From a virus: a stretch of DNA of 53,383 nt. Position 1 is the stretch's first letter; the number at the start of each line of letters is the position of its first letter. Shown here one piece after another: positions 2,313-44,862 of the stretch. The notes beneath the pieces were generated by a model. That model had not been told where the DNA came from. It searched no databases and saw only the letters and a list, made by a program, of their open reading frames with translations. The stretch is from positions 1 to 53,383 of the IMG/VR virus record IMGVR_UViG_3300044701_003267, one strand, 5' to 3'. The position numbers and the translations under genes were made by a program.

Positions 2313-4214
2313 TTATTCCTTCTTTTCTGTAAACGTAGCATCTACTACGTTATCATCGGATGGATTATTGCCGGTTGCTTCTTGAGCTGGCTGACTTTCT
2401 TTAGCCTGCTTTTTTTCTAACAGAGTTTTCATTGCCGGATAAACTTTGTTAAGTTCTTCTGTGATCTTATCTTTGTCGTCGCCCTTTGTGGCTTCTCCAA
2501 CAGCATTGATAACATCCTCAAGTTGCTTAACTTCATCTTCAGTAAGTTCGCTACGATACTCTTCAAGATCTTTTTTAACTTCGTGCATCTGAGCTTCAGC
2601 TGAATTCTTAGTATCGATTAGTTCTCTAGCTTTCTTATCTGCTTCGGCATTAATCTCAGCATCTCGAATCATTTGTTCAATTTGTTCTTTGCTTAGACCG
2701 GAATCAGACTTGATGGTGATCTTATTTTCTTTGCCTGTATTTTTATCTTTGGCAGAGATATTCATGATGCCATTGGCATCAACATCGAAAGTAACTTCGA
2801 TCTGCGGAAGTCCTCTACGGGCCGGAGCAATGCCTTCTAGATTGAATTCGCCTAACAGTTTATTGTGTTGAACGAGTTCTCTTTCTCCCTGGACCACTTT
2901 GATAGTCACGGCAGGCTGATTATCTTCAGCCGTGCTGAATGTCTGACTTGCTTTGGTAGGAATCGTAGTGTTCTTTTGAACCAGTTTAGTCATTACTCCG
3001 CCTAACGTTTCGATACCTAAACTCAGAGGAGTAACGTCAAGTAACAATACGTCATTGCGATCGCCGCCCAACACAGCACCTTGGATAGCAGCACCAACTG
3101 CTACTGCTTCGTCTGGGTTTACATCTTTGCGTGGTGCCTTACCGAAAAGTTTCTCAACTTCTTCTTGCACTTTAGGCATACGTGTCTGACCGCCAACAAG
3201 AATAACTTCGTCAATGTCAGCAGCAGTAACACCTGCGTCTTGCATAGCGATGCGGCAAGGAGCCAGTGAACGATTAATAAGATCTTCGACCAGGCTTTCT
3301 AATTTTGCCTTTGTTAATTTTACTACTAGATGCTTAGGACCACTTGCATCGGCTGTGATGTAAGGTAAGTTAACTTCTGTCTGTGTGCTGTTTGATAATT
3401 CAATTTTGGCTTTTTCAGCAGAGTCTTTTAAACGCTGAAGAGCTAATACATCTTTAGTTAAATCAACGCCTTGTTCTTTCTTGAACTCCTCGACCAAGTA
3501 GTCCATAATGCGTTGATCGAAGTCTTCACCACCTAGGAATGTGTCGCCATTCGTTGACAATACTTCAATTTGTTTGTCGCCATCTACATTCGCGATTTCA
3601 ATGATCGATACATCGAAAGTACCGCCACCAAGATCGTAAACAGCAATTTTTCTGTCAGCTTTATCTTGCTTATCAACACCATAGGCCAATGCAGCCGCTG
3701 TTGGTTCGTTGATGATACGCAGAACTTCTAAACCTGCGATCTGTCCCGCATCTTTGGTTGCTTGACGTTGTTGATCGTTAAAGTAAGCAGGCACAGTGAT
3801 CACTGCTTTAGTTACTTCTTGACCAAGATAATCTTCTGCGGTCTTTTTCATTTTACGAAGAACTTCTGCAGAAATCTGTGGAGGTGCCAATTCTTTGCCC
3901 TGTGCTCTAACCCATGCATCGCCGTTTTTACTTTCCATAATTTCGTATGGCATCAGGTCGATGTCTTTTTGTACAGCCTGTTCTTTAAACTTACGTCCAA
4001 TCAATCGCTTGGCTGCATAAATTGTATTTTTGGGGTTAGTGATCGACTGTCTTTTCGCCGATGCACCTACAAGGATTTCGTCGTTGGCATAGGCAACGAT
4101 ACTAGGTGTAGTACGAGTACCTTCTGAATTTTCAATAACTTTGGAAGTTCCATTCTCGACGATAGCCACGCAGGAATTGGTGGTGCCGAGGTCAATACCG
4201 ATGATCTTAGACAT
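2313..4214 (-). CDS. dnaK: Chaperone DnaK (Hsp70), full length
   Basis: An ATP-driven chaperone of 633 residues, close to bacterial DnaK length. The nucleotide-binding domain begins [19 protein letters not shown]. Further motifs are [12 protein letters not shown] near 170, [11 protein letters not shown] near 197 and [11 protein letters not shown] near 340. The substrate-binding domain includes [20 protein letters not shown]. The lid is followed by a tail ending [12 protein letters not shown] rather than the E. coli EEVKDKK. No DnaJ or GrpE gene is in the window, so it may use host partners. A late-type GATAAATA box lies 75 nt upstream (4290-4297) and the leader carries the SD-masking hairpin shared with hsp20. 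A complete DnaK is unusual cargo for a phage. Confidence 0.97.
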
Positions 4215-4914: not shown

Positions 4915-5934
4915 TTATTTTACAAATATATCGTTGATCTGTCTGTTCACACGAATAAATGTGGTACATTTGGATAATTGTTTTAGACTAGGAGCTCCGA
5001 CATAGGTACAGGTACTGCGTAAACCACCTAAAAGATCTAATACAGTATTCTGCACCGGACCTTTGTATTTTACTTCTACAGTGCGTCCTTCTGAACTACG
5101 ATATTCAGCAACACCTCCACTGTGTTTATTCATAGCAGTGTCTGAACTCATTCCGTAAAATGTTACTTTGCCGTCTTTGATTTCGCCACCGCCTTCGTCG
5201 TGTCCTGACAGCATACCGCCTAGCATTACAAAGTCCGCGCCAGCGCCGAAAGCCTTAGCAACATCACCAGGGCAAACACATCCACCATCAGCAATAATAT
5301 GAGCGCCAAGACCGTGAGCGGCATCGGCACACTCAATGATAGCACTAAGCTGTGGGTAGCCCACACCAGTTTGGATACGAGTAGTACAAACGCTACCAGG
5401 GCCAATGCCCACTTTAATAATATCTGCGCCACGTAAAATTAACTCCTGTGTCATATCTGCGGTAACCACATTACCGGCGATAATAGTTATGTGAGGATAT
5501 GCTTGTCTAACTTTAGAAACATATTCTCCAAAATGTTCACTGTATCCGTTAGCTACATCGATACAGACGAAATGAATTTCTGGATAAGAATTTACTATCT
5601 GTCTTAGTTTAAGAAAATCTTTGTCACTGGTTCCTGTGCTGACGGCAAAATAATTTCCGCCAAACTTACCTGTTAGATCAAAAAGATCGTCTTCAGCATA
5701 GCTCTTAACCAGACAAGTAAACATCTGATGTTTATACAATTTTCGAGCCATATCTATTGTACCCACACCGTCCATATTGGAAGCCATGATAGGTACACCG
5801 GTCCATTCAAAGCCACTGTGTCTAAATTTATATGTTCTTGTAAGATCTACTTCTTTGCGACTACTTAGAGTAGAACGCTTTGGTCTGATGAGCACATCAC
5901 GGAAGTCTAGCTTGACTTCATCTTCGATACGCAT
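4915..5934 (-). CDS. guaC: GMP reductase
   Basis: Converts GMP to IMP with NADPH, linking guanine and adenine nucleotide pools. The 339-residue protein begins [21 protein letters not shown], the GuaC signature start. The catalytic cysteine loop is [20 protein letters not shown] (about 178-197), with [20 protein letters not shown] near 214-233. It lacks the CBS domains of IMP dehydrogenase and has the shorter GuaC length. It starts 12 nt after the bS21 gene stop. In a phage it would rebalance purines for DNA synthesis beside NrdAB, which is inference. Confidence 0.93.
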
Positions 5935-10446: not shown

Positions 10447-10475
10447 ATTATAGCACGAAAACCGGCGATTATCGA
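10447..10475 (-). promoter_or_regulatory. Sigma70-like promoter
   Basis: The minus strand reads TCGATA (10470-10475), a 17-nt spacer, and TATAAT (10447-10452), about 60 nt before the gene starting at 10386. It overlaps the end of the 129-residue gene upstream. Confidence 0.55.
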
Positions 10476-10858
10476 CGCATTTTGGCGATATCTACCGCCT
10501 GCTCGTCCGAAAAGATTGGAACTGCATTACTCTTATGCATAGTACCAATACCTTTAATCTTATCACCGGTATAGACTTTTTGCTCTGGTTTAGTACAAGG
10601 GCCACCAGTAAATGGTAGGCTAGGGATCTTAGGTTGATCAGATCCTCTGTAAAATGGTGCGGGAGTTGACAGAGTCGGAGCAGACATAGCACGTTTCTTA
10701 CGCTTTTCTTGTTGCTCGATACCCCATTTTTTCAATAAGTCGTTCCAATTTTCTTCCAATTGTCTAGCCTTTCGTGCTTCATCTGCATTGCGAAACTTAC
10801 GTTTGCCTTTTTTCTTTCCCGTAGTTGAAAGCCACGGACCTTCCAAATGCATACTCAA
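10469..10858 (-). CDS. Conserved phage protein with MHLEGPWLSTTGKKKGK start
   Basis: A basic 129-residue protein. The start is probably TTG at 10858 (7 nt after GGAGG), with an ATG two codons later. The N-terminus MHLEGPWLSTTGKKKGK and C-terminal GTMHKSNAVPIFSDEQAVDIAKMRR are familiar from many large tailed phages of aquatic bacteria, where the protein has no assigned function. A helical, lysine/arginine-rich middle (DEARKARQLEENWNDLLKKW) separates them. It has its own perfect -35 promoter (10890-10918). Confidence 0.85.
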   Translation of the reverse strand: MSMHLEGPWLSTTGKKKGKRKFRNADEARKARQLEENWNDLLKKWGIEQQEKRKKRAMSAPTLSTPAPFYRGSDQPKIPSLPFTGGPCTKPEQKVYTGDKIKGIGTMHKSNAVPIFSDEQAVDIAKMRR

Positions 10859-10889: not shown

Positions 10890-10918
10890 ACTATAACATC
10901 TTTGCAATAGACTGTCAA
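10890..10918 (-). promoter_or_regulatory. Strong sigma70 promoter
   Basis: TTGACA (10913-10918), 17-nt spacer, TATAGT (10890-10895) on the minus strand, about 30 nt before the start at 10858. The -35 box begins right after the T-run of the pqqA terminator, so the two units are cleanly separated. Confidence 0.85.
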
Positions 10919-10920
10919 GA

Positions 10921-10940
10921 AAAACCCGCCTAGGGCGGGT
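10921..10940 (-). terminator. Terminator after pqqA
   Basis: A 7-bp GC-rich stem, ACCCGCC/GGCGGGT, with a three-base loop is followed on the minus strand by TTTT. On the plus strand a T-rich stretch also follows, but no plus-strand gene precedes it. It closes the short pqqA transcript. Confidence 0.85.
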
Positions 10941-10963
10941 CTTTTGGTTTTTTGATCTATGTA

Positions 10964-11035
10964 TTAGCGATTAGCGATATACATAGTGATCTCAAAACCG
11001 TAACGCATTTCAGTAGCTTCTGGTTTGGTCCACAT
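10964..11035 (-). CDS. pqqA: PqqA, precursor peptide of pyrroloquinoline quinone
   Basis: A 23-residue peptide beginning MWTKPEATEM and continuing GFEITMYIANR, read from the ATG at 11035 to TAA at 10964. It matches PqqA almost residue for residue in layout: the MWTKP start, a GFE(V/I)TMY core and an NR end. The core Glu15 and Tyr19 are spaced E-x-x-x-Y; these are the two residues cross-linked and excised to become PQQ. An AAGGAG Shine-Dalgarno sequence lies 8 nt upstream, a strong terminator follows, and a hairpin precedes it. No other pqq gene is in the window, so host PqqBCDE would have to process it. Confidence 0.88.
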   Translation of the reverse strand: MWTKPEATEMRYGFEITMYIANR

Positions 11036-11060
11036 AATGTTTCTCCTTTTTTACATCATT

Positions 11061-11096
11061 AAAAACATACTTGCATCAGTATGTATCTATATTATA
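11061..11096 (-). promoter_or_regulatory. Leader of pqqA: -10 box, then hairpin with short T-run
   Basis: On the minus strand TATAAT (11091-11096) is followed by a perfect 7-bp inverted repeat, ACATACT-N6-AGTATGT (11065-11084), and TTTTT, then the pqqA Shine-Dalgarno sequence. No good -35 is seen. The hairpin may be the terminator of the upstream glycosyltransferase operon, or an attenuator if the TATAAT is used. Confidence 0.45.
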
Positions 11097-11131: not shown

Positions 11132-12142
11132 TTAAATTATACTAATCAAATTGTTTTTGAAAATCTTCCAGCAATTTTCCCAAGTCCATTTTTCTGCAGT
11201 CTCTCTGACTCTTTCTCTATTATAATTGGCTGCTATACGAATACTAAGAGATAGATTTTCGCTCATATGTCCATTCACGCCTTGTTCCAAAATATCAATA
11301 GGACCAGGAACTGGATATGCGGCCACTGGTGTACCTAGACTAAGGCTTTCTATAATGACGATACCAAATGTATCTGTTCGGCTAGGGAAGCAAAATACAT
11401 CTGCTTGTGCGTAGCAGTCTGCCAAATCGCTACCCGATTTATATCCCAGAAACTTTACTCTAGAATATTTTTTTTCTAACTCATTTCGGTAAGGGCCGTC
11501 CCCAACAATGGTTATATCAAACTCATTTTCTAAACGACACAGCTCATCTAGATTTTTTTCTTTGCTAACACGACCTACATATAGAACAGAAAGATTCAGA
11601 TGAAGATACTTATGATGACTCCATTTAATGCTAGTTGATAGTGTTTCTCGATCTACTCCCCTGGTCCAAGAAACGATATCACCTTTAAATCCGTGTGATT
11701 TTAAATCGTCAACCATTGTATCAGTCGTAGTCAGTACTTTGCCGCTGTGTTTATGAAACCATCGAACATACCAATAAGTCCAACTTATGGGTATCTTGTA
11801 TATTTCGTTTAAAAATTCAGGAAATTTAGTATGGTAACTAGTATTGTAACGATAGCCGCGTTGGTCAAGATAAAGTCTAGCACACAGACCAACAGGACCC
11901 TCGGTGGCGATATGTATATAATCCGGAGATATCTCCTCAATCTTCTTGCCGATCTTCCTAGGAAGGCTAAGTTTAACTTCAGGGTAGCCTGGGCAACTAA
12001 AATGTAAGAACTCCCTGGGATCAAGGTATAAAAGGCTATACCCGTCCAAAACAGCGTGTTTCTCAATACTCTTGAAGGTCGTAACAACGCCATTGATCTG
12101 CTCCGGTAAATTATCAGTGATGACTAAGATTGTTTTATGCAT
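11132..12142 (-). CDS. GT4 glycosyltransferase, Agt-like (glycolipid synthesis)
   Basis: A 336-residue GT-B enzyme. The N-terminal lobe opens ILVITDNLPEQINGVVTTF and has YIHIATEGPVGLCARLY and NTSYHTKFPEFL. The C-terminal lobe has LYVGRVSKEKNLDEL and the E-x7-E nucleotide-sugar motif in DTFGIVIIESLSLGTPVAAY. These are features of GT4 mannosyl/glucosyl transferases, including alphaproteobacterial Agt, which glycosylates diacylglycerol under phosphate starvation. The gene follows the PlcP-like gene by 60 nt on the same strand, the pairing seen in host lipid-remodelling operons. A surface-polysaccharide role is the alternative. Confidence 0.8.
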   Translation of the reverse strand: MHKTILVITDNLPEQINGVVTTFKSIEKHAVLDGYSLLYLDPREFLHFSCPGYPEVKLSLPRKIGKKIEEISPDYIHIATEGPVGLCARLYLDQRGYRYNTSYHTKFPEFLNEIYKIPISWTYWYVRWFHKHSGKVLTTTDTMVDDLKSHGFKGDIVSWTRGVDRETLSTSIKWSHHKYLHLNLSVLYVGRVSKEKNLDELCRLENEFDITIVGDGPYRNELEKKYSRVKFLGYKSGSDLADCYAQADVFCFPSRTDTFGIVIIESLSLGTPVAAYPVPGPIDILEQGVNGHMSENLSLSIRIAANYNRERVRETAEKWTWENCWKIFKNNLISII

Positions 12143-13283: not shown

Positions 13284-13291
13284 TATTTATT
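13284..13291 (-). promoter_or_regulatory. Late-type promoter box (AATAAATA)
   Basis: AATAAATA on the minus strand, 22 nt upstream of the 52-residue gene, overlapping the stop region of the AhpD gene. Confidence 0.55.
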
Positions 13292-13799
13292 AACTGTTTA
13301 ACACCTTAGCAACACTGTTCATTACAGCAGCGATGCGTCCAATGTCTCTCAACTGATCAACTGAATAACCTTCTGCCTTTAGTGTGTCGAAATGTGCCTT
13401 CACACAGAAATGACATTTGCCTACGATACTGGCTGCTAAACTATATGCCTCAAATCTTGCCTTTGTAGTACCGCCGTGACTGGCAATAGCATTCATACGC
13501 AGTTGTGGCGGGATGCCTTCTAGAGCACCGCCTACCATTTCAACATATGGATACCAAACGTTGTTCTGCGCCATGATAGCCGATGCTGTCAATGCTGCGT
13601 CACGTTCTCTGAGATCTTCAATGCCACTAGATACAAATGTTACTAACTTACCGTTGCCTGTGGACATTGCGGCTGCTAAGGCACACCCTTGAGCTTCTAT
13701 TGCATCTAATGTGCTACGGTTTATAACCGCGTCAAGGTTTAGTCTAGTGTCCTTAGCGTATTCCGGGAGTGCCTCTTTGATTTGTTCTACCCAACTCAT
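13290..13799 (-). CDS. ahpD: AhpD-like alkylhydroperoxidase
   Basis: A 169-residue protein of the carboxymuconolactone decarboxylase/AhpD fold. The active site GKCHFCVKAH gives C129-x-x-C132 and H136, with E117 in RFEAYS. This is the same layout as mycobacterial AhpD, which re-reduces AhpC through a lipoamide-type adaptor. The AhpC gene two genes upstream on the same strand is of the matching mycobacterial type. The two therefore probably form a complete peroxide-reducing pair made by the phage, with only the electron donor from the host. The 4-nt overlap with the SGNH gene indicates one operon. Confidence 0.88.
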   Translation of the reverse strand: MSWVEQIKEALPEYAKDTRLNLDAVINRSTLDAIEAQGCALAAAMSTGNGKLVTFVSSGIEDLRERDAALTASAIMAQNNVWYPYVEMVGGALEGIPPQLRMNAIASHGGTTKARFEAYSLAASIVGKCHFCVKAHFDTLKAEGYSVDQLRDIGRIAAVMNSVAKVLNS

Positions 13800-14233: not shown

Positions 14234-14791
14234 TTAGAGAGTCTCGCCACCAACTGTACGGTTACAAGCACATAGCTCGCCAGTTTGTAACGCATCCAAT
14301 ACACGAAGTGTTTCTTCTGGTGAGCGACCAACGTTCAAGTTGTTGACGGTAACGTGTTGGATAACGTTGTCTGGATCAACAATGAATGTGGCACGAAGTG
14401 CAGCACCTGCTGGAGCATAGAACACGCCGAGCTGATTAATCAGGCTTAGATCTTCCATGGTGTTGTCATTCCAACGCTGCGTATCTGCAAACTGTGTATG
14501 CGTGATCTTTTGTAGATCTGGGTGTGCCTTTTGCCAGCTGACTTTACAGAACTCGTTGTCTGTTGAACCTGTGAGCAGTACTGCATCACGGTCGGCAAAG
14601 TCGCCGGCTAGTTTGTCGTAGGCTACAATTTCTGTAGGGCAAACGAATGTAAAGTCCTTTGGGTAGTAAACGATTACTTTCCACTTACCTTCAAAACTTT
14701 GGTCTGTAATGTCAAAGAACGCATCTTCTGGTTGACCAGGCTTGACACCTGTTACTGCGAATTTTTCTAATTTATCACCAACTGTTTTCAT
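14234..14791 (-). CDS. ahpC: Peroxiredoxin AhpC (mycobacterial type)
   Basis: The ATG at 14791 follows AAGGAG by 5 nt and gives 185 residues. DFTFVCPTE holds the peroxidatic cysteine (C51), and the end VLDALQTGELCACNR holds the two C-terminal resolving cysteines. This Cys-Ala-Cys ending is typical of the AhpC that works with AhpD. It reduces H2O2, organic peroxides and peroxynitrite. It is the first gene of the ahpC/SGNH/ahpD unit, behind a sigma70-like promoter (14846-14875). Confidence 0.93.
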   Translation of the reverse strand: MKTVGDKLEKFAVTGVKPGQPEDAFFDITDQSFEGKWKVIVYYPKDFTFVCPTEIVAYDKLAGDFADRDAVLLTGSTDNEFCKVSWQKAHPDLQKITHTQFADTQRWNDNTMEDLSLINQLGVFYAPAGAALRATFIVDPDNVIQHVTVNNLNVGRSPEETLRVLDALQTGELCACNRTVGGETL

Positions 14792-14845
14792 ATCTTCTCC
14801 TTGTGTGTGTTTGAAAACTTCAATAACTCTGTATTGTATGTGTAT

Positions 14846-14875
14846 ATTATATATCCTATTAAAATGCAAAATCAA
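14846..14875 (-). promoter_or_regulatory. Sigma70-like promoter of ahpC
   Basis: TTGATT (14870-14875), 18-nt spacer, TATAAT (14846-14851) on the minus strand. The leader of about 50 nt contains the ahpC Shine-Dalgarno sequence. The stretch 14792-14926 otherwise holds nothing I can name. Confidence 0.6.
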
Positions 14876-14926
14876 TAGATTTTTTCTAAATATTTTTTTA
14901 TGACGATCATAGGAAAAATCAATAAC

Positions 14927-14954
14927 GAAAAGAAAGCGGCCCGAAGGCCGCTTT
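14927..14954 (-). terminator. Terminator of the tmRNA
   Basis: AAAGCGGCC-TTCG-GGCCGCTTT on the minus strand: a perfect 9-bp stem with a UUCG-type tetraloop, followed by a T-rich tail (CTTTTCGTT). It lies about 45 nt after the tag stop codon and ends the tmRNA transcript. Confidence 0.9.
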
Positions 14955-14960
14955 ACTATT

Positions 14961-15275
14961 TTGGTTGACAAGGCATAGTTGCCCCGGAGTGGCAGTTTCT
15001 TAGGCTGCTAGAGCGAATCTACCTTCATTAGCTGCACCAACGGTGTTGCCTGTGAAGTTCAATGCGCCAAACTCAAATGTATCTGCGTTTGCATTTACGT
15101 TTTTTGCTTCTGCGACCGGGTTACTCCAATCCTACGGGTTCTGCTTTCCCGAGCTGTCCACTCTGTTACTCTTTGCCCTGTCGAAACCATGTACACCCCC
15201 AACGCAGGATACTTTTAAAATATCCTCCGGTGGAGGTGGGGAGATTCGAACTCCCGTCCAGAACACTTTTCTCTT
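14961..15275 (-). ncRNA. ssrA: Circularly permuted (two-piece) tmRNA
   Basis: Minus strand, in order. First the acceptor piece, with T-arm GGGAG-TTCGAAT-CTCCC and 3' acceptor strand CACCTCC followed by ACC (15229-15255). Then a short spacer with a GGATA...TATCC hairpin. Then the 5' acceptor strand GGGGGTG (15194-15200) followed by the tmRNA-specific GTACATGGTTTCGACAGGG, then the tag frame ending GCTCTAGCAGCCTAA (stop 15000-15002). The two acceptor strands pair over 7 bp with one G-U. This order, 3' half before 5' half, is the permuted form known from alphaproteobacteria, some betaproteobacteria and cyanobacteria. Outer ends are approximate. It begins just after the DUF454 gene stop. Confidence 0.9.
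15000..15092 (-). other. tmRNA proteolysis tag reading frame (about 30 residues)
   Basis: From the probable resume codon GCA at 15092 the frame reads ANADTFEF..., then NTVGAANEGRFALAA and stop. The ALAA end is the ClpXP-type degron found in E. coli and many others. The same frame stays open upstream to another GCA at 15112, so the tag is 30 or at most 37 residues. Most tags are about 10-20 residues, so this is long. Confidence 0.75.
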
Positions 15276-15296
15276 TGCTTCATACAGCAATAACTT

Positions 15297-15707
15297 TTAT
15301 TTAATCCAACCTATCTTTTCGCCAGCATCTTTGCGACGATCATGTTCTTCTGGAGTATTTGGATATCTCCAGGCCCAAACAGCGACCAATGCCATAAACA
15401 CTGCTGTTGAAATAATACCGATAAGTTTTACCCCACCTGTCCACATTAGTATAAGGCTTAATGACATCATTGTCAACATCAAATAACGTAGTTTTTGAGG
15501 AAAAACTCTTTTTTCGCTCCAATTGGTTAAAAATGGTCCGAAAATCTTATGATTGTAAATCCAACGATGCATACGCTCACTGCCCTTAGAAAAACAATAA
15601 GCTGAAAATACAATAAACGGGCTGTAAGGAATTCCAGGTGTGATCAATCCGATATAGGCCAGTCCTAAACTAATAAATCCTAAAACATTCCAAAATAATT
15701 TTTTCAT
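15297..15707 (-). CDS. DUF454/YbaN-like inner-membrane protein
   Basis: The ATG at 15707 (three bases after the PAAR stop) gives 136 residues. The first hydrophobic segment contains LGFISLGLAYIGLITPGIPYSPFIVFSAYCFSKGSER, the DUF454 signature, and another membrane stretch follows at about 80-110 (LMLTMMSLSLILMWTGGVKLIGI). Function of the family is unknown. Its stop lies about 40 nt before the tmRNA T-arm region, so the tmRNA may also be transcribed from this operon. Confidence 0.85.
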   Translation of the reverse strand: MKKLFWNVLGFISLGLAYIGLITPGIPYSPFIVFSAYCFSKGSERMHRWIYNHKIFGPFLTNWSEKRVFPQKLRYLMLTMMSLSLILMWTGGVKLIGIISTAVFMALVAVWAWRYPNTPEEHDRRKDAGEKIGWIK

Positions 15708-29977: not shown

Positions 29978-30005
29978 AAAAGCACCCTTAGGGTGCTTTT
30001 TCTTT
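29978..30005. terminator. Bidirectional terminator
   Basis: AAAAGCACCC-TTA-GGGTGCTTTT with T-runs available on both strands, placed between the convergent 88-residue gene (+) and desaturase gene (-). Confidence 0.9.
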
Positions 30006-30705
30006 ATCTAACTGTAGCTAACTTAAAGAACCGCAAGATACAGATATACATCCAACCTAGATCAAATTCATACCATTTCTGGCTGAACTTGGCATTGGCT
30101 CCATCACTGTGGTGATTGTTATGCAGTTCTTCGCCGCCAATCCACACCGCCCACGGAATGATGTTACGGCTGGTGTCTTTGGTATCGGTGTTGCGGTATC
30201 CCCACCAATGACTAACGCCGTTGATAACACCTGCGGCCCAAAACGGGATCCATAACATTTGTATACCCCACACAAAAAATCCCACAGGGCCAAAAAGAAC
30301 AAGATCTATGATCAACATTAAAAGAATCCCTAGGCGACTATGCGGGGTATACAAATTCTCTTCTATCCAATCGTTAGGTGTGCTGTGACCTAATTCTTGT
30401 ATTAATAGTTTATTTTTTGCAGCTTTGGCATACAGTAATGCGCCTCCAAATAATACACGCCATATTCCGTATACCTGCGGGCTGTGTGGATCTTTTTCTG
30501 TATCGCTGGCCTGATGATGTTTACGATGTATGGCTACCCACTCTCTAGTGACCATTCCGGTAGTCAACCATAACCAGAATCGCATAAAGTGTGCTACTAC
30601 CGGATGAAACTGTACTGCTCTGTGTGCCTGACTACGGTGTAGATAAAGCGTGACACAGGCTATAGTGATTTGTACCATCACTAAGGTATATAAAAGTTCT
30701 ATCAT
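30004..30705 (-). CDS. Fatty-acid desaturase (delta-9 type)
   Basis: Introduces a double bond into acyl chains. The ATG at 30705 shares its A with the upstream stop, giving 233 residues. The three histidine boxes are HRSQAHR (H23-H28), HRKHH near 63 and HNNHH near 199. Four membrane helices surround them. This is the family of acyl-lipid/acyl-CoA delta-9 desaturases, reported in cyanophages, where they modify host membrane lipids. Together with the PlcP/Agt-like pair it adds a second lipid-directed function. Confidence 0.92.
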   Translation of the reverse strand: MIELLYTLVMVQITIACVTLYLHRSQAHRAVQFHPVVAHFMRFWLWLTTGMVTREWVAIHRKHHQASDTEKDPHSPQVYGIWRVLFGGALLYAKAAKNKLLIQELGHSTPNDWIEENLYTPHSRLGILLMLIIDLVLFGPVGFFVWGIQMLWIPFWAAGVINGVSHWWGYRNTDTKDTSRNIIPWAVWIGGEELHNNHHSDGANAKFSQKWYEFDLGWMYICILRFFKLATVR

Positions 30706-31325
30706 TAATAATTCCCGGAGGCCAGAACAATTTTGCAAATGTGCTCTAGTCGCTCTATGTGTTCAAAAGACCGCCATGGAGTTGAATCTATAGCCACGAC
30801 CCCGTGTCCTTTGATACCTACTATGTCGTACTTAATCTCACCTGTAGATTCATTTAAACCCAACTTTTTATGACATTGATCTCCCAGTTCTTGACTTATA
30901 GGCGGAACGTCTCCTACGTTTGGTGCTACACGAGTATAACGGCCTAATTCTGGAAAATGTTTAACTAATTCTGATAATTCAATTCCGGCGTGCATAGCCG
31001 CCACACAATATGTAGGATGGATGTGGGTTACTACACGAACTTCGTCTGTATGTATCTTGTGCTGGAGACCGAAATGCAATGGCATTTCACCTGTAGGTTG
31101 CAGTCCAGATGAAATTTCGGAATAAATCATTTCTTCCCAATAACGATCAGATAGGATCTTTATTTTCTTGAACTGATCCGGTTGCATCGTTTGTTTACGA
31201 ACTCCGCTAGGAGTGACGTAAAAATGATCACGATCGTGATGGCGAATCGAAATATTGCCATCTCTACTTGTGATCCAATTGCGTTTATACGATTCTACTA
31301 ATATGTCGCAGATGGTTTCTAACAT
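30705..31325 (-). CDS. Class II aldolase/adducin-family protein
   Basis: 206 residues. ITSRDGNISIRHHDRDHFYVTPSG (about 17-40) and THIHPTYCVAAMHAG (about 99-113) give the sugar-phosphate-binding and zinc H-x-H motifs. GIKGHGVVAIDSTPWRSFEHIE gives the third zinc histidine. Related enzymes are fuculose/ribulose phosphate aldolases or epimerases and MtnB dehydratase. The substrate is not clear. It is translationally coupled to the desaturase gene, and its CATAAATA box is 29 nt upstream. Confidence 0.85.
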   Translation of the reverse strand: MLETICDILVESYKRNWITSRDGNISIRHHDRDHFYVTPSGVRKQTMQPDQFKKIKILSDRYWEEMIYSEISSGLQPTGEMPLHFGLQHKIHTDEVRVVTHIHPTYCVAAMHAGIELSELVKHFPELGRYTRVAPNVGDVPPISQELGDQCHKKLGLNESTGEIKYDIVGIKGHGVVAIDSTPWRSFEHIERLEHICKIVLASGNY

Positions 31326-42732: not shown

Positions 42733-43938
42733 ATGATTAACAAAGAACCCTTTAAAAAACTCATATTAGACCTTAAAGAATCTGGGAAATATCGTGTTTT
42801 CAACGATATTATCCGCGAGCGAGGTGACTTTCCCAAAGCTATCTGGTACGGTCCCTACAATATTAAAACCATAGTAAACTGGTGCTCAAATGACTATTTG
42901 GGTATGGGCCAACACAAAGTGGTCTTAGACGCTATGCACACAGCCTTAGATCAAACAGGATCTGGATCTGGAGGCACTCGCAACATTGGTGGAACCAGCC
43001 ACTATCACGTGGCCTTAGAACATGAGCTAGCAATGTTACATAACAAGAGCAGAGCCTTGCTGTTTAGTTCAGCTTATGTGGCCAACGAGTGGACTATCAT
43101 AGCCTTGAGCAAGATCATTCCTAACATACAGTTTATTTCTGACAGCAACAATCATAACAGCCTTATTGTTGGCATACAACATTCTCGGGCTCCTAAACAA
43201 GTTTTCAAGCATAACGATCTACAAGACCTGGAAGATAAGTTAGTACACAGCAAACTGGCTGGGCACACTCCTTGTATCGTTTTTGAATCAGTCTACAGTA
43301 TGGATGGCGATGTAAGTCCTATTAAACAAATCTGCGATCTAGCAGACAAGTATCAGGCTATAACTTACATAGACGAAGTACACGCGGTAGGACTCTATGG
43401 AACCCACGGTGGTGGGAAGGTTGAAGAGCTTGGGCTAGAATCCCGTATTGACATAGTCAATGGTACATTAGGGAAAGCCTATGGAGTCCAAGGTGGCTAT
43501 ATTGCTGCCGATGCTGATGTCGTTGATGCCATCCGTTCTGTAGCTGCTGGATTTATCTTTACTACGTCAATGAGTCCTGTGGCCTGTGCCGGTGCATTGG
43601 CTGCGGTCAAGTGGTTAAAGGATCATAACGAGATTCGTGAGAAACATCAAGAACGTGCTAACAAGTTAAAGAAATTACTGAAAGAGAACGAACTGCCTGT
43701 GATGGGATGTTCTACTACACATATCGTTCCGTTACTGGTAGGAGAGGCTAAAAGGTGTAAAGCCATGAGCGATCTTTTACTCAATGAGTTCAACATCTAT
43801 GTACAGGCGATTAACTATCCAACGGTAGATGTAGGTACAGAAAGATTACGATTTGCACCTACACCATACCACGATGATTCTATGATGAGTGATTTGATTG
43901 TTGCTCTAAAGTCTGCGTATCACCAGGTGCAAGTCTAA
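42733..43938 (+). CDS. hemA: 5-aminolevulinate synthase (Shemin pathway)
   Basis: Condenses glycine and succinyl-CoA to 5-aminolevulinate, the committed step of tetrapyrrole synthesis. The 401-residue protein matches alphaproteobacterial ALAS throughout: [61 protein letters not shown] (D214, H217) and [18 protein letters not shown] with the PLP lysine K248. The numbering equals that of the Rhodobacter enzyme. Full length with no defects visible. No Shine-Dalgarno sequence; TAAATA ends 8 nt before the ATG. With the heme oxygenase it could push heme turnover. Confidence 0.96.
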
Positions 43939-44275
43939 AACGATCCTCAACATAATCCGCAGTCCCGACTTCTAAGATCACTGAATTAGGATGCAGAGCT
44001 TCGATCTGATGCGGGCTGAGCTCTGCGAAATCTGCGGTCTTACCTTCTTCTAGAATAGCTTCTTTGATTTGACCAGTGGCCACATCTATGTAAGTTACCT
44101 TGAATCTCCCGGCATTGACAAACCAGCTCTTTCTTTTTTCTTTATGGAATACCATACTGGTTTTGGCACCTACCTTGGTAAACACCAGTAGTTTGCCGCA
44201 GTAACTTTCATTGTTACTCCATATGATTTCAAATCCCCAGCCCTTGTCTATTTTTCCTGCTTTCTGTAGGTTCAT
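43880..44275 (-). CDS. Cupin-domain protein (mannose-6-phosphate isomerase type II-like)
   Basis: 131 residues. [40 protein letters not shown] and [20 protein letters not shown] show the two cupin motifs with metal-binding His/Glu. It resembles the C-terminal cupin of bifunctional sugar-nucleotide enzymes and sugar-phosphate isomerases. Its last 59 nt run antisense through the ALAS 3' end. It is coupled to clpP upstream by 4 nt. Confidence 0.85.
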
Positions 44276-44862
44276 GGTCTTTTCTCTATGATTTTATCTA
44301 CGAGCCCGTAGTCTAATGCTTCTTGTGCTGACATAAACTTATCTCTTTCCATATCCGCAGAAAACATTGCAAATGTTTTATCTTTGCTGTTATGCTTGAC
44401 ATAGATCTCAGTGAGATTCTTTTTCATTTTTAAAATTTCTTCAGCCTGTATCTGAATGTCTGTGGCCTGCCCACGAGCTCCTCCGCTGGGCTGATGAATC
44501 ATATGACGAGCGTTAGGCAGCATATGTCTTTTACCTGCTGCACCTGCCTGGGCTAGCAATGATCCCATAGAACAGGCCTGCCCCATTACATAGGTGGCGA
44601 CATCTGGTTTGATAAACTGCATCGTATCATAGATGCTCATACCTGCTGTGACTACGCCACCTGGACTGTTTATGAACAGACTAATGTCCTTGTCTGGATT
44701 TTCACTTTCTAAAAATAACAGTTGGGCTACGACCAAATTCGCCATATAATCTTCTATAGGGCCGTTCAACATAATTATTCTTTCTTTGAGCAGTCTACTG
44801 TAGATATCAAAAGCACGCTCGCCTTTTGATGTAGACTCAATAACCATTGGTACCAATGCCAT
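44272..44862 (-). CDS. clpP: ATP-dependent Clp protease proteolytic subunit
   Basis: 196 residues with the full catalytic triad: S98 in [16 protein letters not shown]123 in MIHQPSGG, D170 in [36 protein letters not shown] is the oxyanion strand and glycine-rich loop. A tetradecameric protease core needing a ClpX/ClpA unfoldase, none of which is in the window, so it must use the host's. With phage ClpS and tmRNA it suggests directed protein turnover. Confidence 0.95.

Follow-up and report, generated by a model that had tools for sequence, protein, structure and literature searches.

Why would a virus carry a gene for PqqA, the small peptide precursor of the cofactor PQQ, and does this gene serve the infection? 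The question is raised by the virus record IMGVR_UViG_3300044701_003267, the whole 53,383 nucleotides of which were analysed and are referred to here as the window.

The PqqA gene and its product

The pqqA gene of the window (positions 10964–11035, minus strand) is an open-reading frame of 23 codons, running from an ATG start to a TAA stop, and encodes MWTKPEATEMRYGFEITMYIANR, a free-standing short peptide of a length within the range of 20–30 residues. It lies between a glycosyltransferase-like gene (11132–12142, minus strand) and a gene for a 129-amino-acid protein (10469–10858, minus strand), exactly where the sequence-only reading had placed a tiny PqqA-like frame. The profile search proposed there as a check gives scores above both curated cut-offs, namely 35.0 bits against PF08042, the Pfam PqqA model (cut-off 21.1), and 38.2 bits against TIGR02107, the NCBIfam equivalog model (cut-off 20). 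A search of the whole record with the PqqA model yields this single match (E-value 7e-9), and a control search of 14 known genomes gave zero matches. The glutamate and tyrosine of PqqA supply atoms of PQQ, and both are present as E15 and Y19 with the E-x-x-x-Y spacing. Judged by its sequence, the frame is a genuine PqqA.

The peptide shares with bacterial PqqA (PF08042/TIGR02107) its length, the W-x-K-P and G-F-E-x-T-M-Y motifs and the NR/NK end. It differs from it in being carried by a phage, in the variant residues Y12 and I16, and in a phage-type leader hairpin that is enriched over host leaders. The closest bacterial peptides found differ at 3–4 positions (Y12, I16 and others), and the form MWTKP...YGFEITMY was present in none of the 84,980 species covered by a strict bacterial scan. 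The PqqA family is absent from PHROGs, and the PDB holds no match to the peptide. The possibility that the window is a host fragment posing as a virus was considered and rejected, as pqqA has no bacterial neighbours here and a neighbouring gene is common to phages of Burkholderiales.

The transcription unit and its leader

The gene is predicted to form a free-standing unit on the minus strand, in which the Shine-Dalgarno sequence, the strong terminator and the upstream hairpin described earlier can all be located. The Shine-Dalgarno sequence AAGGAG (11043–11048) is found 7 nt from the ATG. Upstream of it, at 11065–11084, is the hairpin ACATACT-gatgca-AGTATGT, a perfect 7-bp stem that is supported by its predicted fold and is the sole such match in the window (0 expected). 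A TATAAT sequence (11091–11096), located 6 nt upstream of the hairpin, is a putative -10 box, and no good candidate for a -35 box is seen upstream of the gene, so that the promoter is best described as putative. Since transcription normally starts 6–7 nt after the -10 box, the hairpin would be placed at the extreme 5' end of the mRNA. The unit is closed at 10919–10945 by an intrinsic terminator, ACCCGCC-cta-GGCGGGT followed by T5, seen in the sequence, the scan and the predicted fold. Only 0.1 such stem-loops were expected. The scan reports the stem-loop on the plus strand and the T5 tract is on the minus strand too, and therefore the terminator may work in both directions. The predicted fold of the whole unit has a z-score of -4.1. 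Orphan pqqA genes of Methylophilaceae, as seen in Methylophilaceae-like genomes, are similarly monocistronic with a Shine-Dalgarno sequence.

The architecture of this leader is conserved among viral pqqA genes, in keeping with the designed unit proposed by the sequence-only reading. The matches listed contain 158 distinct viral pqqA leaders, which were searched for inverted repeats whose arms span 7 nt or more between positions -60 and -20; a Shine-Dalgarno-like motif is present in 149 of them. Such repeats occur in 28.5% of these leaders, compared with 4.2% in dinucleotide shuffles. A comparison was also made with genes other than pqqA on these contigs that have a Shine-Dalgarno sequence and an intergenic leader; after removal of redundancy, and with only a rough correction for kinship among leaders, the hairpin was found in 32.8% of viral pqqA genes from the matches listed and in 11.5% of the others (p = 3e-7). 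The excess is weaker in host-type pqqA leaders, 10.9% against 3.3% (n = 55). The arms of the listed viral hairpins comprise 34 distinct 7-mers, some of which are registers of one stem, and this wide variation indicates that complementarity is kept while the sequence changes. Among the 45 hairpin leaders in the matches listed, a TATAAT-like box ends 5–7 nt before the hairpin in 21, and the box is present anywhere in the preceding 22 nt in 28, where shuffles predict 17. The simplest reading is that the hairpin contributes to mRNA stability.

Occurrence and selection among viruses

Viral contigs were searched for pqqA with degenerate DNA patterns. The strict pattern detected it in 74 contigs and the loose one in at least 120, giving at least about 190 pqqA-bearing viral contigs in total. 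Among the matches listed there are dozens of distinct PqqA peptides, nearly all of them 23-mers. The gene is flanked by viral genes, and related viruses as well as cultured phages of methylotrophs carry it too, which bears out the proposal of the sequence-only reading to look for it in related phages, and it is carried by several phage lineages, including some with genomes of 35–44 kb.

The neighbours of pqqA form 129 distinct pairs among the 198 listed loci, and the gene thus occupies many genomic contexts. In 66 contig pairs among the matches listed, the pqqA DNA is at least 94% identical while the flanks have no detectable similarity. Likewise, phage Venkman and the environmental phage ctXG6705 share an 85-nt match at pqqA and nowhere else in a 10-kb query. 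Shared DNA within unlike flanks suggests that pqqA may be a mobile cassette, although convergence on the host sequence could contribute.

A tiny cassette found nearly unchanged in unrelated surroundings might also be a neutral passenger, a host copy acquired by chance and without a role in infection; the several orphan pqqA copies in the host lineage would make such acquisition easy. The pattern of substitutions, however, argues against this explanation. Among 115 distinct viral sequences in the matches listed, pN/pS is 0.37 at the codons unfixed by the search pattern, and R11 is invariant though five codons are used for it. On this comparison pqqA is under purifying selection, and it is the protein on which selection acts. 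E15, Y19 and their spacing are also invariant in the same 115 sequences, in part as a consequence of the search pattern, which demanded them. The leader and Shine-Dalgarno sequence are conserved as well, the gene is present in several phage lineages, small genomes included, and among annotated phages it is confined to methylophages. A neutral passenger is thus unlikely.

The strongly structured leader and terminator could alternatively be taken to mean that the function lies in an RNA, either a small RNA or a leader, and not in the peptide. Yet synonymous changes outnumber those that alter an amino acid, all 115 listed sequences have an intact reading frame, and the leaders vary in sequence while the peptide is constant, which makes an RNA function scarcely credible. 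What appears to be maintained is the PqqA peptide itself.

Cultured phages

A search of 50,697 phage records gave 12 PqqA matches, and two different PqqA queries returned the same set. Nine of the 12 belong to OM43/LD28 isolates (MEP301, MEP401, MEP402, Venkman, four Melnitz records and P19250A), a count of matched records that leaves aside Methylophilales phages also named in the taxonomy, such as MEP431-434, EXVC038S and others. The remaining three are the environmental phage ctXG6705 and two contigs labelled as Acinetobacter phage. The longer of these two, contig L219 of “Acinetobacter phage MD-2021a” (CAKLQF020000010.1), was set aside, as it carries a bacterial pqqABCDE operon and is therefore probably misfiled as phage.

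In every methylophage record opened, pqqA either lacks an annotation or has a hypothetical ORF annotated across it on the opposite strand. In Melnitz the annotated hypothetical ORF gp151 (QZI94433.1, L218 4961–5056), which is probably spurious, lies antisense over pqqA, and an annotated ORF is placed likewise in ctXG6705 (L220 2067–2195). In the publications describing Melnitz, MEP301, MEP401/402 and Venkman, none of the phage genes is linked to PQQ. Functional phage genes of only 23 codons are, on this evidence, overlooked by gene callers. Pelagibacter phage HTVC008M, which has a SAR11 host and has been placed in one family with Melnitz (PMC9004378), contains no PqqA, its best score being 9.7 bits compared with 56.5 in Melnitz.

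Host genomes and the host of the virus

Bacterial genomes were sampled by order, one order being that with betaproteobacteria-like genomes; another scan reached Neptuniibacter-like genera only. Very similar PqqA peptides were found in 12 sampled genomes, which have 2–8 pqqA copies each, even at a size of 1.3 Mb. All 12 encode PQQ-dehydrogenases (PQQ-ADH) and the hexulose-phosphate synthase of the RuMP pathway. Multiple pqqA copies together with these enzymes fit Methylophilaceae, the name given to them here by inference. In published genomes of Methylophilaceae, pqqA is present 3–12 times and every other pqq gene just once (PMC4109929), as would be expected if the precursor is required in large amounts. 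In the present sample up to nine pqqA copies were seen in one bacterial genome (the G209 family; G780, G809 and G660).

Phage P19250A infects LD28, and its PqqA is identical in 23 of 23 residues to that of four 1.3-Mb genomes; the commonest marine viral PqqA (at least 25 contigs) matches the peptide of G835, G780 and G809 just as fully. This bears on the idea that the phage peptide is a decoy or inhibitor, occupying PqqD/PqqE and thereby lowering host PQQ or giving an altered product. The YGFEIT form of the window, found in no searched bacterial genome, could be read in this way, but many phage peptides are letter-for-letter the substrate of the host, and the invariance of E15, Y19 and their spacing also speaks against interference. 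A decoy is highly improbable, and the viral peptide is better regarded as an additional substrate.

The window PqqA is identical in 19 of 23 residues to the form in a RuMP methylotroph (G585) and in 20 of 23 to that in genomes that belong to the same order but lack RuMP (G488 and others). The window also encodes a permuted tmRNA of betaproteobacterial type (14931–15338, minus strand; RF01850 104.5 bits, RF04321 105.5 bits). Its DnaK shows 68–71% identity to most of the sampled order and 64–65% to G046 and G331, and the gene neighbouring pqqA is common to Delftia and Acidovorax phages. These three features point to a host that is probably a betaproteobacterium (Burkholderiales in GTDB terms). 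This host is only a possible methylotroph or PQQ user.

Partner enzymes and proposed role

Adjacent pqqBCDE genes are usual for pqqA but not required; in the window, a search for PqqE found none. Among 24 long pqqA-bearing viral records, the window included, none has a PqqE above the cut-off, generic radical-SAM matches being the only ones. The PQQ-dependent alcohol dehydrogenase (TIGR03075) is missing from all 45 pqqA-bearing viral records examined, which reach 356 kb; many of them are fragments, and for any single virus the absence of a partner gene is not proof. Nor did tblastn detect pqqB-E genes in ten host regions around pqqA copies, with queries that were verified on their own source. 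The lack of PQQ-dehydrogenase in 45 contigs and of PqqE in 24 long ones supports the earlier suggestion that the phage would bring just the precursor and leave the remaining steps to host enzymes.

One PqqA is consumed for each PQQ made, while PqqB-E are reusable. This distinction between the single use of PqqA and the repeated use of the enzymes is described in PMC9851590. A lytic phage that halts host expression would be expected to make the precursor run short first, and a phage copy could top it up. A short monocistronic transcript, predicted to be about 165 nt and to begin at the hairpin, would be translated into free PqqA; host PqqD/PqqE would crosslink E15 to Y19, and a host protease, PqqB and PqqC would complete PQQ. 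Periplasmic PQQ dehydrogenases, in methylotrophs of the XoxF/MDH type, could then keep working during the shut-down of host transcription. That the gene is transcribed, that host enzymes process the peptide, that PQQ rises and that the phage benefits are inferred steps. Overall, pqqA is likely to be an auxiliary metabolic gene with which the phage adds to the PqqA pool and so keeps the PQQ dehydrogenases of the host active during infection.

Published data bear on this role in both directions. According to work cited in PMC9851590, 70–80% of PqqA peptide added to a cell-free extract was converted to PQQ, which supports the view that PqqA in trans suffices. In Acetobacter, overexpression of pqqAB raised PQQ by only 29%, compared with eightfold for pqqABCDE (PMC7936290); this counts against a large effect of extra PqqA, and PqqE or PqqB/C, rather than PqqA, could be limiting.

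A broader proposal, for which belief and doubt are evenly matched, is that pqqA would be near-obligatory for phages whose hosts are PQQ-dependent methylotrophs, acquired separately by unrelated families as a hairpin-capped micro-transcript that tops up a consumable peptide, and missed in these phages because it is only 23 codons long.

Relation to known systems

Phage copies of host genes such as pmoC and psbA sustain energy metabolism during lysis. They provide enzyme subunits, whereas pqqA provides a consumable peptide substrate.

The opinion of the sequence-only reading that no such phage system had been described does not hold, for phage-borne PqqA and its proposed role are already known from Coutinho et al. 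2020 (PMC7678222), who found PqqA and a phage methanol dehydrogenase in a Lake Baikal phage and proposed enhanced methanol oxidation. That phage, VP_266, is T4-like and has a predicted Methylophilaceae host, while the virus of the window is not tied to a methylotroph; VP_266 pairs PqqA with methanol dehydrogenase, while no PQQ dehydrogenase accompanies it in the 45 pqqA viral records. A 2026 study reports viral pqqA, pqqD and pqqE in reservoir sediments, and a link of PqqA to RiPPs and defence has been proposed for bacterial loci (PMC11118758). A limited literature search found no description of the breadth of lineages, of pqqA in cultured isolates, of a precursor without partner enzymes or of the hairpin leader, although such descriptions may exist.

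If the proposed role is true, phages of very common C1-consumers of lakes and seas would steer methanol oxidation via a cofactor precursor, and pqqA would be the cheapest imaginable gene of this kind. Its unnoticed presence in cultured phage-host pairs (Venkman, Melnitz, MEP301, MEP401/402 and P19250A) makes the role testable at the bench now.

Other host-like genes of the virus

The window bears a rich set of genes that appear host-like. A complete 5-aminolevulinate synthase (42733–43938, plus strand) scores 568.8 bits against TIGR01821 (cut-off 338.55) and has no close homologue in the 50,697 phage records. Full-length DnaK (2313–4214), GMP reductase (4915–5934), DesA-type desaturase (30004–30738) and ClpP (44272–44862) all pass their curated cut-offs.

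Near pqqA are genes for an AhpD-like protein (13290–13799, minus strand) and an adjoining peroxiredoxin (14234–14971), and in at least 18 viral loci an AhpD-like gene is directly upstream of pqqA. Such neighbours would be in line with PQQ being raised mainly for redox or antioxidant ends rather than for methanol or alcohol oxidation. The association with AhpD is restricted to a single portion of the viruses, however, and the cultured pqqA phages infect obligate C1 users that have PQQ dehydrogenases, enzymes also encoded by related genomes. A mainly antioxidant purpose is very unlikely, and support of PQQ dehydrogenases is the preferred reading for these phages.

Nothing resembling the tmRNA of the window at the DNA level was found in the phage collection. 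ARAGORN predicts tmRNAs in at least 17 viral pqqA loci, several of them with unusually long predicted tags that contain an F(T/S)GNTV motif and may be misparsed.
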